This document shows positions 31,010 through 63,948 of a stretch of DNA of 64,000 bases, piece after piece. Location: the NCBI GenBank assembly GCA_002840435.1, contig PHAT01000005.1, positions 286,460 through 350,459 of the forward strand, read 5' to 3'. Position numbers and translations under genes: made by a program. The first letter of the stretch is position 1. Each line of letters starts with the position of its first letter. The notes under the pieces are model-generated. The model made no database searches. It was not told where the DNA came from and worked only from the letters and a program-made list of their open reading frames with translations. The DNA is from Deltaproteobacteria bacterium HGW-Deltaproteobacteria-6 (GTDB taxonomy: Bacteria > Desulfobacterota > Syntrophia > Syntrophales > Smithellaceae).

Positions 31010-31107
31010 TGGCGGAAGTGCATGGGAATCGAACCCACCTGGGACGGTTCTAGCGCCCCACACTGGATTTGAAGTCCAGGAGGCCCACCAGTGACCTTGG
31101 CACTTAA
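31010..31107 (-). tRNA. selC: tRNA-Sec (anticodon TCA), 5' acceptor end atypical
   Basis: The minus strand reads like bacterial selC: an anticodon arm CTGGA-CTTCAAA-TCCAG with anticodon TCA, a long variable arm (GGGGCG paired to CGTCCC around a loop), a TTCGATT T-loop and an encoded 3' GCCA. The 3' acceptor strand is GCACTTCC, which should face GGAAGTGC, but the 5' strand reads TTAAGTGC, so the first two pairs are mismatched. The gene starts nine bases after the stop of the flagellar rod-like gene, with no promoter between. selA lies at 48.6 kb. It may be a working gene with an error or a damaged copy. Confidence 0.85.
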
Positions 31108-58228: not shown

Positions 58229-59890
58229 CTAATCCTTAAATATTGCCCCGGTGGAAGCAGACGTCACCAGCCTGGCATAGCGCGCCAGATAGCCCGTGGT
58301 GATGGCGGGCGTCCAGGGTTTGAGCAACTTGCGGCGCCGCGCAAGCTCGGCGTCGCTGACTTTCAGATTCAGCGTTTTGGCCGGGATATCAATGGCAATG
58401 ATATCGCCTTCCTTCACGAGTGCAATGGGGCCGCCTTCCGCCGCTTCCGGAGAGATATGACCGATCGCCGCGCCCTGCGTACCGCCGCTGAAACGCCCGT
58501 CGGTCAAAAGCGCTACGGTCTTATCCAGTCCCATCCCGACAATTGCCGAGGTCGGCGAAAGCATCTCGCGCATCCCCGGGCCGCCTTTGGGACCTTCATA
58601 GCGGATCACTACAATGTCACCGTCTTTAATCTTTCCACCAAGGATCGCGGCGATGGCGTCATCCTCACAGTTAAAGACCCGGGCCTTGCCTTCATTGATC
58701 TGCATCGCCTGCGCCACCGCGGATTGTTTCACCACGCCGCCGTCCGGAGCAAGGTTGCCGCGCAAAACAGCAATTCCGCCCTGCTTGGAATACGGATTAT
58801 TTAAGGACCGAATGACATCATCATTCAAAACGCGGGCAGTTTTTAAATTCGCTCCTACAGTTTTTCCCGATACGGTCATTGCTTTTTCATCAATAACGCC
58901 CAGCTTGCTTATGGTCTTCAGGACCGCTTGAATCCCGCCCGCCGCATCCAGATCTTCAATGTGGTGATGACCGGCCGGGCTCAATTTGCAGATGTTCGGA
59001 GTTTTCCCGCTGATTTTATTGAAGAGGTCCAAATCGAGCTTGATCCCCGCTTCATGAGCAATGGCGGGAATGTGCAAAACCGTATTGGTGGAGCAGCCTA
59101 ATGCCATATCGACGGCGATCGCGTTTTTGAAAGCGGCCAGTGTCGCGATGTCGCGGGGTTTCACGTTCTTTTTGAGAATATCCATAATTTTCATGCCCGC
59201 ATGCTTGGCCAGTCGATGCCGCGCGGCAAGCACCGCCGGAATCGTGCCGTGTCCGGGTAACCCCAGACCCAACGCTTCGGTGACGCAGTTCATGGAATTG
59301 GCCGTGTACATGCCGGAGCAGGAACCGCAGCCCGGACAGGCGCAGTCTTCCAACTGTGCCAATTCCGCGGCTTTCATTTTTTTGGCCTTTACCGCACCGA
59401 CGCCTTCAAACACAGAAATGAGGTCAACGGCTTTACCCTGAAGTTTCCCCGCCAGCATCGGGCCGCCGCTGATGAAAATCGCCGGAATATTCAGCCGCAG
59501 CGCCGCCATAAGCATGCCGGGCACGACCTTGTCGCAGTTGGGAATAAAAACCAAAGCGTCAAACGGATGAGCCATCGCCATGATTTCAATGGAGTCGGCA
59601 ATCAATTCGCGGCTAGCCAGCGAATACTTCATCCCCGCATGATTCATGGCGATGCCGTCGCATACCCCGATAACCGGAAACTCCACCGGTGTGCCACCGG
59701 CCATGCGAATACCCGCCTTGACATCCTGAGTGATCAGGTCCAGATGGATATGGCCGGGGATGATTTCATTGGCGGAATTCACCACACCGATAAGCGGTCT
59801 GGCAATTTCTTCATCGGTATAACCCATGGCTTTAAAGAGTGAGCGATGCGGTGCGCGCTCCAGTCCTTTTTTCATGAGATCACTTCTCAT
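58229..59890 (-). CDS. ilvD: dihydroxy-acid dehydratase
   Basis: A 553-residue iron-sulfur dehydratase of the valine/isoleucine path, converting dihydroxy acids to 2-keto acids. The cluster Cys are in [12 protein letters not shown] and in [20 protein letters not shown], and GGSSGG-like [20 protein letters not shown] is near the C-terminus. Length is typical of the standard group. It is the last gene of the minus-strand ilvB-ilvH-ilvC-ilvD order, 267 bases after ilvC. That gap carries a palindromic repeat. Confidence 0.95.
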
Positions 59891-60157: not shown

Positions 60158-61213
60158 TTATTTCTTGCGTTTTTCCGGTCTGAGCGCTCTCACAGCAGCG
60201 CCGGCCTGCCACAACTCGGACTCGCGCATCTCTTTGAGTTCTTCGTTGAGCTTTTCCTTGTAATCCGGCGCGCCGTTGACGCGCAGAACGATTTCCGTCT
60301 CCTTGCCGGTAGCGACGGAATTATAAAGTTCGGCAAACACCGGTTCCACCGCCTTGCGGAATTTGTGCCGCCAGTCCAGCGCACCGCGCTGCGCGGTAGC
60401 TGAACAGTTGGCGTACATCCAATCCATGCCGTTTTCGCCGACCAGACGGATCAGGCTCTGCGTAAGTTCTTCCACCGTTTCATTGAAGGCTTCGCTTGGG
60501 GTATGGCCGTGTTTGCGCAGTTCGGCGTATTGTGCCTCCATCATGCCGGCAAGAGCGCCCATCAGCACACCGCGTTCACCGGTAAGATCGCTGTAAACTT
60601 CCATTTGGAAGGTCGTCGGAAACAAGAATCCGGAACCGATGGCGATGCCCAGAGCCAGTGTGCGTTCCATTGCGCGGCCTGTTGCATCCTGATGGACCGC
60701 AAAGCTGGAATTGATGCCGCTGCCGTCGACGAAATTGCGGCGGACGCTGGTACCCGACCCCTTGGGAGCGACCATAATGACATCGACGAAGTCAGGCGGG
60801 ATAACACCCGTCTGTTCCTTATACACAATTGAAAAACCATGCGAGAAGTAAAGCGCATCGCCTTTTTTCAGGTGTGCTTTGACTTTCGGCCACAGGATAG
60901 TCTGCGCCGCGTCGGATACCAGATATTGAATGACGGTTGCTTTCTCTACCGCTTCTTCAATCGGGAAAAGCGTCTGGCCGGGTACCCAGCCGTCGGCAAT
61001 GGCTTTTTCCCAGTAAGATTTGTCTTCCGGAGACTGACCGATGATGACGTTGACGCCGTTATCTCTCATATTGAAAGCCTGCGCGGGCCCCTGAACACCA
61101 TAGCCCAAAACCGCGATCACTTCTTTTTTAAGAACGTCCTGTGCCTTTTGAACGGTGAACTCTTCCGAAGTCACCACATCTTCCACTGTACCGCCAAAAT
61201 TAATTTTTGCCAT
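60158..61213 (-). CDS. ilvC: ketol-acid reductoisomerase
   Basis: A 351-residue enzyme of class I length, with the NADPH motif GYGVQGPAQAFNMRDNG (residues 38-54), metal ligands in AHLKKGDALYFSHGF and VAPKGSGTSVRRNF, and a C-terminal helical knotted domain with ENGMDWMYANCSATAQRGALDW. It rearranges and reduces acetolactate. It starts 48 bases after ilvH. The sequence around the cofactor loop is atypical compared with E. coli or the NADP-only class, and its preference for NADH or NADPH cannot be told here. Confidence 0.95.
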   Translation of the reverse strand: MAKINFGGTVEDVVTSEEFTVQKAQDVLKKEVIAVLGYGVQGPAQAFNMRDNGVNVIIGQSPEDKSYWEKAIADGWVPGQTLFPIEEAVEKATVIQYLVSDAAQTILWPKVKAHLKKGDALYFSHGFSIVYKEQTGVIPPDFVDVIMVAPKGSGTSVRRNFVDGSGINSSFAVHQDATGRAMERTLALGIAIGSGFLFPTTFQMEVYSDLTGERGVLMGALAGMMEAQYAELRKHGHTPSEAFNETVEELTQSLIRLVGENGMDWMYANCSATAQRGALDWRHKFRKAVEPVFAELYNSVATGKETEIVLRVNGAPDYKEKLNEELKEMRESELWQAGAAVRALRPEKRKK

Positions 61214-61261: not shown

Positions 61262-61747
61262 TTAATCATCCAATTTCAAAGCGATAAGACCTGTTCTGGT
61301 GATATCGGCAATGCCGAGCGGCTCCAGGCGAGCCAGAGAAAAGTCGATTTGAGTTTTATCCCCTGTTATTTCGATAATAACATATTTATCGCCCGACACG
61401 ATGACCTTCCACTTATTCATATCAATAGCCTTTTTTACGGATTCCGAATTCTGGGCTGTCAGATTAAGCCGGACCAGAACCATCTCGCGATGGATGGACT
61501 CGACATTGGTCAGGTCATCAACAGAAATTACATCGAACAGTCTTTGCAGCTGATTTTCAATCCGGGTAACGGTCGTCTGGGCTCCGGCAGTGGTCATCAC
61601 GATTTTCGATATGTCTTTTTGCGTTGTGGTATTCACGCAGAGACTGTCAATATTGTATCCTTTACCGCCCAGCGTTCCGGCAACTCTGGCCAGAACGTCC
61701 GGTTTGTTATGCACCAGAATTGAAATAATGTGGTCCTTTTTCTCCAT
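61262..61747 (-). CDS. ilvH: acetolactate synthase small (regulatory) subunit
   Basis: A 161-residue ACT-domain subunit that raises the activity of IlvB and gives valine feedback. ISILVHNKPDVLARVAGTLGGKGYNIDSL is the ACT domain, and the C-terminal half (IHREMVLVRLNL) is the usual second domain. ATG 61747 with GAGG upstream is preferred to GTG 61762. A dispersed repeat separates it from ilvB by 186 bases, so translational coupling to ilvB is broken. Confidence 0.95.
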   Translation of the reverse strand: MEKKDHIISILVHNKPDVLARVAGTLGGKGYNIDSLCVNTTTQKDISKIVMTTAGAQTTVTRIENQLQRLFDVISVDDLTNVESIHREMVLVRLNLTAQNSESVKKAIDMNKWKVIVSGDKYVIIEITGDKTQIDFSLARLEPLGIADITRTGLIALKLDD

Positions 61748-61773
61748 TTTACTCAACCTCACAATTAGTAATT

Positions 61774-61936
61774 TGACGCTTCGTCAAAAGCTCCAGAGGC
61801 AAGGCGTGCGAGTCATGAGGAATGCGGCCTGCTTATGCAGGCCGCCTAGCCTGCCCCGGCACAGGCCGGGGAATGATGACGCACAACGAAGCATATGGGA
61901 CTCGCGTGCCCTCTGGGGTATTTCACGAAGTCGTCA
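61774..61936. mobile_element. 163-bp repeat with terminal inverted repeats, copy B
   Basis: The ends TGACGCTTCGTCAAAAGCTC and, reversed, TGACGACTTCGTGAAATACC are imperfect inverted repeats, and CCAGAGG occurs in both just inside. The core contains a strong hairpin (GCGGCCTGC/GCAGGCCGC) and the same ordered blocks as copy A at 53679. The ilvB stop codon TGA (61936-61934) is the first three bases of this element as read on the minus strand. Confidence 0.75.
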
Positions 61937-63637
61937 GTTGATCATCTCTCTCGACCCGAGCGTCATCTGGGTAATCGACTCGCCCGGATGCACCATGGGA
62001 TAAACACATTCTTCGCGCGACACCCGGAAATCCATCAGGACCGGTTTGTCCGCGGCGAGCCCCTCTCTTAGCACGGCTTCCACCTCGGCTGGTTTGGTCG
62101 CCCGCAGACCGATTACGCCAAAGGCTTCCGCCAGTTTAACGAAATCGGGCGCGTAAGTCATATCCGTATGGGAGTAACGCTTTCCATAAAACATTTGCTG
62201 CCACTGGCGGGGCATGCCTAAAAATTCGTTATTCAGCAGGACAACCTTTACGGCAATGTTGTACTGAGCGGCAGTGGCCAGTTCCTGAATGTTCATCTGG
62301 ATACTGCCGTCGCCGGCAATATCCACCACCTGCTTGTCGGGGAAAGCGCATTTGACGCCGATGGCGGCGGGCAGGCCGAATCCCATCGTCCCTAAGCCCC
62401 CTGATGAGATCAGGGTGTTGGGCCGGTCAAACTGGAAGAACTGCGCCGTCCACATCTGATGCTGACCGACTTCCGTCGTGATGAGGGCGTCGCCGCCGGT
62501 AAGCTTATGCAGGGTTTCGATAACGTATTGCGGTTTAATCACCTCGCCGTTCTGACAGTAGGTCAGCGGTACTTTTTCCCGCCATTCGGCAATCTCGCCA
62601 AGCCACGTATTCCTCAGAGCGTCATCATGCGCATAGTGATGTTCTTCCAGAAACCGCAGCAAGTCCTTGAGCGTGGCTTTCGTGTCGCCGATTATCGGCA
62701 GATCAACGGTAACATTTTTATTAATGGACGACGGATCGATATCAATATGGACTATTTTCGCGTTGGCGGCAAAGGTTTCAATTGTTCCGGTCACGCGGTC
62801 GTCAAACCGGACGCCGACGGCCAGCAGAAAATCGCAGTGGCTGATGGCCATGTTCGCATAGTAAGTGCCATGCATACCCAGCATGCCCAGCCACAAAGGG
62901 TCGCTGCCCGGAAACGATCCAAGACCCATCAGGGTGCCGGTTACCGGAATCCGGTATTTGCGCGCAAGCTCTGTCAATTCTTCAGATGCCTTACCGAGGA
63001 TGACACCGCCGCCAGTCATAATTAAGGGTTTTTTAGCGGCTTGGAGCATATCCCATACATTGGCCATTTTCTTGGGCGCCGGTTTGTAGGCCACTTCATG
63101 ATTGCGGAACCTCACATTAGAAGGAATATAATCGGTTTGCGCGGCCATCACATTCTTGGGCAAATCCACAAGCACCGGCCCCGGCCTTCCGGAACGGGCG
63201 ATATGAAACGCTTCTTTAATTGTTGAAGCCAGATCTTCGACGTTGCGCACCAGAAAGTTATGTTTCGTGCAGGGACGCGTGATCCCGGTAATATCGCACT
63301 CCTGAAACGCATCGTTGCCGATAAGGCCCGTCGGGACCTGCCCGGTAAAAACCACCAGAGGGATGGAGTCCATATTGGCCGTGGCAATGCCGGTGACGGT
63401 ATTGGTGGCGCCGGGACCGGAAGTCACCAGGCAAACTCCTACGCGGCCTGTTGCGCGCGCATAACCGTCGGCGGCATGCACCGCACCCTGCTCGTGGCGG
63501 ACTAAAATATGTTTGAGGCTGCTTTTGTAAAGTTGATCATAAATATCGAGAACAGCCCCGCCGGGGTAGCCAAAGATAATGTCCACTTTTTCTTCTTCCA
63601 GCACTTGCAGCAGGATTTCCGTGCCTTTCAACTTCAT
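61934..63637 (-). CDS. ilvB: acetolactate synthase large (catalytic) subunit
   Basis: A 567-residue ThDP enzyme that condenses pyruvate. The catalytic Glu is in ILVRHEQGAVHAADG, FAD- and ThDP-binding segments are TSGPGATNTVTGIA, GDGSIQMNIQELATA and the Mg loop NNEFLGM. The C-terminus is MIN, with its TGA provided by the repeat at 61774-61936. It is the first structural gene after the leader peptide and attenuator. GGAG before ATG 63637 is strong. Its activity is set by IlvH and valine. Confidence 0.96.
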   Translation of the reverse strand: MKLKGTEILLQVLEEEKVDIIFGYPGGAVLDIYDQLYKSSLKHILVRHEQGAVHAADGYARATGRVGVCLVTSGPGATNTVTGIATANMDSIPLVVFTGQVPTGLIGNDAFQECDITGITRPCTKHNFLVRNVEDLASTIKEAFHIARSGRPGPVLVDLPKNVMAAQTDYIPSNVRFRNHEVAYKPAPKKMANVWDMLQAAKKPLIMTGGGVILGKASEELTELARKYRIPVTGTLMGLGSFPGSDPLWLGMLGMHGTYYANMAISHCDFLLAVGVRFDDRVTGTIETFAANAKIVHIDIDPSSINKNVTVDLPIIGDTKATLKDLLRFLEEHHYAHDDALRNTWLGEIAEWREKVPLTYCQNGEVIKPQYVIETLHKLTGGDALITTEVGQHQMWTAQFFQFDRPNTLISSGGLGTMGFGLPAAIGVKCAFPDKQVVDIAGDGSIQMNIQELATAAQYNIAVKVVLLNNEFLGMPRQWQQMFYGKRYSHTDMTYAPDFVKLAEAFGVIGLRATKPAEVEAVLREGLAADKPVLMDFRVSREECVYPMVHPGESITQMTLGSREMIN

Positions 63638-63693: not shown

Positions 63694-63772
63694 AAAAAAG
63701 CCGCAAGTTTCTTTTAGGAAAAAGCGGCTTTGTGTCCAAAAGCAAAGCCGCGGGCTTCAGGGGCCCGCGGCT
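63694..63772 (-). promoter_or_regulatory. ilv attenuator with four pairing segments and terminator
   Basis: On the minus strand, segment 1 AGCCGCGGGC (63772-63763) pairs with segment 2 GCCCGCGGCT (63755-63746). Segment 2 also pairs perfectly over nine bases (GCGGCTTTG, 63751-63743) with segment 3 CAAAGCCGC (63732-63724). Segment 3 pairs with segment 4 GCGGCTTTTTT (63704-63694), the terminator with a T-run. This is the classic arrangement of protector, antiterminator and terminator. A further hairpin GTATCTT/AAGATAC precedes segment 1. Confidence 0.85.
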
Positions 63773-63797
63773 TGTATCTTATTTTTTTGAAAGATAC

Positions 63798-63893
63798 TTA
63801 ACCGGCAGACCCCATGGGTACGACTACTACTACGAGCAATCTTACACGGGATTGTATCTGAATTCTGCCGCTGTCAAAATCTTTAAGAAACAT
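63798..63893 (-). CDS. ilvB leader peptide
   Basis: A 31-residue frame, ATG 63893 to TAA 63798, preceded by AGGAAG. It contains Ile-Gln-Ile-Gln, then RLLVVVVVP (residues 18-26): two Leu and five Val codons in a row, ending before the attenuator. Such control codons sense charged tRNA-Val and tRNA-Leu. Ribosome stalling would favour the antiterminator and turn on ilvB. Residues 1-17 have no other known role. The peptide itself is probably not functional. Confidence 0.88.
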   Translation of the reverse strand: MFLKDFDSGRIQIQSRVRLLVVVVVPMGSAG

Positions 63894-63919
63894 AATTACT
63901 TCCTGATAAATTTGATTCC

Positions 63920-63948
63920 CTTCTAGCGAAAAAAACGCTGCTTGTCAA
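63920..63948 (-). promoter_or_regulatory. ilv operon promoter
   Basis: Minus-strand TTGACA (63948-63943), 17 bases, TAGAAG (63925-63920). It lies 27 bases before the leader-peptide start and explains transcription of leader, attenuator and ilvB. Confidence 0.7.

Follow-up and report, generated by a model that had tools for sequence, protein, structure and literature searches.

Most attenuators that have been examined by experiment belong to enterobacteria and Actinobacteria, and the his attenuator of Salmonella and E. coli is divided into six regions named A-F. An extra hairpin before the his terminator has been proposed to lower basal read-through (PMC1183508). In the trp attenuator of E. 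coli, segments II and III form the antiterminator, segments III and IV the terminator, and the advancing ribosome prevents II:III pairing (PMC1183508). Leader peptides ahead of ilvB are already known from the literature in Corynebacterium and other Actinobacteria: at Corynebacterium ilvBNC (the ilvB-II motif) a leader peptide with BCAA codons lies before ilvB and a terminator competes with an antiterminator (PMC10272879, PMC11857589), and the ilvB-OMG motif RNA, found upstream of ilvB, contains a BCAA-rich uORF (PMC10272879). The mechanism considered here, classical ribosome-mediated attenuation, is thus a known one; the anatomy is a variant of it.

The window (the whole 64,000-nucleotide stretch that was analysed) comes from a genome of 4.09 Mb in 53 contigs and carries on its minus strand an ilvBNCD operon, the genes of which were identified by NCBIfam models, each above cut-off:

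61934..63637, minus strand: ilvB, acetolactate synthase large subunit (TIGR00118)
61262..61762, minus strand: ilvN, acetolactate synthase small subunit (TIGR00119)
60158..61213, minus strand: ilvC, ketol-acid reductoisomerase (TIGR00465)
58229..59890, minus strand: ilvD, dihydroxy-acid dehydratase (TIGR00110)

The closest named relative that was found is a Syntrophaceae MAG, with 86% identity of IlvB, in keeping with the original prediction that the genome is Desulfobacterota-like. A tRNA-Sec gene (Rfam RF01852) is located at 31014-31107 of the window, also on the minus strand. Upstream of ilvB, a same-strand gene with a penicillin-binding-protein-like product ends just before a promoter-like site, which is followed by a leader ORF:

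63943..63948, minus strand: -35-like hexamer TTGACA, read from the sequence and at a comparable distance in same-family loci
63920..63925, minus strand: -10-like hexamer TAGAAG, after a 17-nt spacer; relatives have TAAAAG or TATTAG at equal spacing
63899..63904, minus strand: SD-like AGGAAG for the leader ORF, read from the sequence; most relatives are also purine-rich here
63798..63893, minus strand: leader ORF MFLKDFDSGRIQIQSRVRLLVVVVVPMGSAG followed by the stop codon, 31 codons, with its ATG at 63893-63891
63819..63839, minus strand: control codons Leu19-Leu20-Val21-25, read from the sequence

The consensus -35 (TTGACA, 63948-63943) and the Leu-Leu-Val-Val-Val-Val-Val leader peptide (63839-63819) that had been claimed for this site are both read directly from the minus strand. 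A short ORF in which codons for the products of the pathway stand in a row (LLVVVVV) therefore precedes ilvBNCD, and its Val-rich peptide includes RLLVVVVVPMGSAG. The ORF is kept in 30 of 31 same-family loci, the 31st (L010) being without its 5' part, and also order-wide in the regions upstream of ilvB. Val runs are present in nearly all of 60 order-wide ilvB leaders. GTA accounts for 67% of the Val codons of these leaders, as against 10% in 59 downstream genes, a preference that could stem from the choice of tRNA or from the structure of the RNA.

The RNA segments that follow were named A to F, 5' to 3', in the present analysis:

63864..63870, minus strand: segment A (CGGCAGA), able to pair with B, weakly supported
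63803..63813, minus strand: segment B (GGGGTCTGCCG), within the leader ORF just after the Val run, partner of C
63774..63797, minus strand: helix P1, GTATCTT (63797-63791) with AAGATAC (63780-63774), lengthening the B:C hairpin
63760..63773, minus strand: segment C (AAGCCGCGGGCCCC), partner of B or D
63743..63755, minus strand: segment D (GCCCGCGGCTTTG), partner of C (upstream terminator-like hairpin) or E
about 63737-63746, minus strand: U-stretch after D, following the C:D hairpin
63724..63732, minus strand: segment E (CAAAGCCGC), partner of D or F
63694..63704, minus strand: segment F and T-run (GCGGCTTTTTT), F at 63704-63698 and the T-run at 63699-63694; E:F is the downstream intrinsic terminator

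In the window the C:D (11 bp), D:E (9 bp) and E:F (8 bp) pairings are all perfect, B:C consists of nine pairs, two of them G-U (one position of this helix is mismatched in most order-level relatives), and the leader folds better than its shuffles (z -3.4). The U-stretch that follows C:D is interrupted in the window (TTTGCTTTT); most relatives have a U-rich stretch there too. By their sequence, C:D with its U-rich stretch and then E:F with its T-run are putative tandem terminators. The second of these, with TTTTTT, lies between the leader ORF and the first gene, and the distance from its T-run to ilvB is about 60 nt. Several loci (L008, L010 and L032 among them) have roughly 80-200 nt extra, partly repeat-like, between terminator and ilvB. 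A plus-strand match of the covariance model at the same place was set aside as the palindromic terminator.

The best explanation of this arrangement, which we hold with high confidence on the strength of sequence comparison and computed folding, is ribosome-mediated transcription attenuation of ilvBNCD under the control of valine, perhaps with leucine. With charged tRNA-Val in short supply, the ribosome would stall on early Val codons and leave B, which lies just ahead, free to pair with C as C is transcribed, in a hairpin lengthened by P1. Formation of B:C would leave D free for E, so that C:D and E:F were both blocked and transcription read through. With ample valine the ribosome would pass through B to the stop codon and mask it; B:C could not then form, C:D and subsequently E:F would, and transcription would end about 60 nt before ilvB. 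D would have a double role, supplying the 3' arm in the first terminator and the 5' arm in the antiterminator that opposes the second, so that one decision by the ribosome would set both terminators.

Like the his attenuator, this leader is predicted to alternate between a termination state with three hairpins and a read-through state with two (PMC1183508), and its extra hairpin is reminiscent of his; unlike the his attenuator, it is under Val/Leu control, its C:D hairpin has a U-rich stretch of its own in most relatives, and A is weak. Set against the his-type six-segment scheme, the pairings from B to F are all found, and A:B is modestly supported: in 17 of 60 leaders (3 expected) it does better than 95% of codon shuffles, and it is not a general feature. 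A:B as a strong protector was rejected on this modest support. Since A is weak, read-through is predicted at most or many loci when the leader is not translated. In terms of the E. coli trp attenuator, B, C and D correspond to II, III and IV; what differs is the second layer, D:E against E:F, and the absence of a strong I:II protector. The likeness to Corynebacterium ilvB-II lies in the BCAA-codon leader before ilvB and in the competition of terminator with antiterminator, the difference from that three-hairpin model in the phylum, the anatomy and the lack of an Rfam match here. The ilvB-OMG motif RNA is alike in its position upstream of ilvB and in its BCAA-rich uORF.

The original prediction had four segments pairing 1:2, 2:3 and 3:4, with a T-run after the fourth. 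These fit C, D, E and F, whose pairings are perfect, and up to that point the description stands; the anatomy nevertheless runs from B, perhaps from A, to F. The attenuator was "complete" in that every element listed is present, but B, through which the peptide is coupled to the switch, and the weak A had gone undescribed. A classical four-segment attenuator, in which only C, D, E and F matter and the stalled ribosome masks C directly, would be well served by three perfect pairings and six T after E:F. It would, however, require the ribosome to reach a segment that begins, in the window, 46 nt after the last Val codon and thus beyond the footprint of a ribosome stalled there. B:C, which is conserved, supplies the coupling in its stead, and B and C co-vary in the leaders of other pathways. 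We accordingly regard the four-segment scheme as improbable.

B is, to judge by sequence and modelling, the likely part that couples leader peptide to switch. The distance from the start of the last Val codon to B is 8 nt in the window, as it is in most of the 60 leaders (the exceptions are 5, 7, 14 and 35, together with a value of -7 from a run that was wrongly chosen), and the stop codon commonly follows B by 14 nt (5 nt in the window). When the ribosome was modelled as a block over bases -14 to +12 of the P site, on a transcript ending after C, the mean probability of B:C over the 60 leaders was 0.77 with the ribosome at the first Val codon, 0.50 at the last Val codon, 0.09 at the stop codon and 0.75 with no ribosome; the corresponding values for the window are 0.94, 0.69, 0.00 and 0.82. 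The probability at the last Val codon depends on the footprint assumed (0.79 to 0.32). The register of the control codons thus gives, by computation, different structures according to whether the ribosome has stalled or is finishing. Folding of entire transcripts at equilibrium was discarded as a model of the switch, which it fails to reproduce, terminators being dominant: when a ribosome block is placed on the complete transcript, C:D and E:F prevail almost wherever the ribosome sits, both in the window and in most of the leaders listed. Switching would therefore have to be kinetic and co-transcriptional, with B:C forming first and persisting.

Conservation was followed at two depths. In the same-family set, for which regions upstream of ilvB were extracted and 30 loci aligned, leader, segments and T-run recur before ilvB in all 30, so that the element is not due to chance; within the family there is almost no covariation in this alignment, the segments being nearly invariant and to that extent uninformative. 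A covariance model of segments B to F (R1), which contained P1, C:D and E:F but not B:C or D:E, matched 148 of 155 genomes of the order at E<=1 and about 140 at E<=1e-6. Sixty order-level regions were retrieved from this search, most of which precede ilvB homologues with Val-rich leaders; one within-family group precedes a trpE-like gene and has a Trp run in its leader. Another attenuator, identical in layout to that of ilvB, lies ahead of a trpE-like gene in the genome of the window itself (L202, G000:C3:318746-318868), with the leader MKNIAVKLNLNNWWWWNLTGRIFRR.

Sixty ilvB leaders from across the order, aligned to R1 (alignment A4), served for covariation. The read-through pairs (B:C, P1 and D:E) are 92.7% standard, with 85 cells in which both sides have changed; shuffled controls give a mean of 18.2 (none of 500 as high) and slid controls at most 14. 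Those of the terminators (P1, C:D and E:F) are 94.2% standard, with 96 such cells against 20.2 for shuffled and at most 14 for slid controls, although P1, C:D and E:F are the helices to which the alignment was fitted, and the counts for them are biased in their favour. All 7 pairs of P1 have changed on both sides somewhere in the order-level alignment; the C to F core is nearly invariant, and the compensatory changes therefore fall mostly in P1 and at helix ends. A mutually exclusive antiterminator (B:C, P1, D:E) is thus accompanied by covariation. Comparison of ilvB upstream regions in relatives, proposed beforehand as a check, did find Val runs and covarying segments; the lack of conservation that was to count against the prediction was not seen, and a Leu/Val-controlled transcription attenuator of the ilvB operon is supported by a conserved leader frame, conserved segments and compensatory changes.

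These results also bear on two other readings. The hairpins might be plain tandem terminators of the upstream penicillin-binding-protein-like gene, with the ORF incidental, as the end of that gene just before the promoter-like site and the weak scores that ordinary single terminators can obtain with the model would allow. Yet a promoter-like site and the leader ORF separate that gene from the hairpins, and the ORF, its Val run, B and the register between them are conserved, as are the alternative pairings B:C and D:E, which makes this reading very improbable. Leader-peptide systems are also able to act on downstream start sites, and attenuation of ilvB might then be translational; C to F exclude the ilvB start region, however, and the T-run of E:F is about 60 nt upstream of ilvB, so that we give this proposal next to no weight. 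Transcription attenuation accordingly remains the preferred reading.

The same layout is found elsewhere in the phylum. R1 has matches at E<=0.001 in 85 of 395 phylum genomes, of which nineteen stronger and one weaker were retrieved and read. No fitting leader was seen at L212 or at L229 (the latter a spurious match that spans tRNA genes), and at L223 a Tyr/Phe leader is followed by a gene without clear role; in the remainder the leader codons fit the amino-acid gene that follows, less clearly at L215 and L217. In 50 named genomes, about 42 of them outside Desulfobacterota by title, R1 found two weak matches (E about 1e-4), both in Desulfobacterota; these look like ordinary terminators and were rejected. 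At a threshold of E<=1e-5, a second model (R2), built from 51 mixed elements, finds matches in 156 of the 395 genomes of the phylum and in none of 40 named outgroup genomes (8 of the latter have matches at E<=1e-3); having been trained on members of the phylum, it shows restriction and is no independent discovery. The claim that attenuation would be extended to a Desulfobacterota-like genome holds to the extent that the element is present, but it is one of many in the phylum and no single case.

Sixty further R2 matches (L266-L325, E about 3e-12 to 1.2e-8) were sampled. All precede amino-acid genes, the products of which form nine clusters, each identified from a single representative: anthranilate synthase (14), ADH synthase (12), DAHP synthase (12), PLP-dependent aminotransferase (8), TrpD, TrpB-like, 2-isopropylmalate synthase and aroFGH-type DAHP synthase (3 each) and a branched-chain-type ABC substrate-binding protein (2). 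In nearly all, a leader ORF can be read whose Trp, Phe/Tyr or Leu codons are the fitting ones (L311 has none), and the control codons match the gene, with Trp before trpE, Phe/Tyr before aromatic enzymes and Leu before leuA. B:C outdoes at least 95% of base shuffles in 53 of these 60 non-ilvB leaders, in a pass that was not blind, as the ORF was picked by expected residues; the sequences of B and C differ between groups. GTCTGCC, which is part of B in the window, is seen close to the start of the model in 10 of the 60 (0.2 expected from shuffles). One ancestral tandem-terminator scaffold (B-C-D-E-F) may have spread through Desulfobacterota and been retargeted by exchange of control codons, which would make the Val/Leu, Leu, Trp and Phe/Tyr switches homologous; we advance this tentatively, at somewhat less than even chances. 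The likeness could instead have arisen by convergence, from the geometry of the ribosome and the composition of terminators.

In Firmicutes, ilv genes are under T-box control. Moreover, some bacteria have a ppGpp riboswitch ahead of ilvB (PMC10272879), and a T-box, riboswitch or protein-binding leader that does without ribosome sensing has to be considered. At gathering score, however, no Rfam family matches the window leader or any of 20 related loci, and control codons follow the downstream pathway, so that this alternative is extremely improbable. The weak Rfam matches of the window leader, up to E 10, look like chance or generic terminator stems; neither the T-box model (E<=10) nor a family named ilvB-OMG is among them, and the library may lack the latter motif. 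No description of the element in Desulfobacterota was found in open papers; Vitreschak 2004 and Lopatovskaya 2010, reportedly surveys of attenuators, may mention it.

A tandem-terminator layout that is unmatched in Rfam is, then, recognisable across a phylum of anaerobes, and the large set of sequences permits comparative tests of how attenuators choose their codons and set the register of the ribosome. As the regulating amino acid can be read off the control codons, leaders of this kind offer a way to assign a signal to genes whose annotation is poor, Phe/Tyr for branched-chain-type ABC transporters being an example. Phe/Tyr-rich leaders of the same layout lie before ABC substrate-binding protein genes at L198, L316 and L270 (the last identified by NCBIfam, the others by resemblance), which suggests, from sequence, that these transporters are controlled by aromatic amino acids. 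At L195, a gene resembling acyl-CoA ligase follows a leader that contains GGFFGFF.
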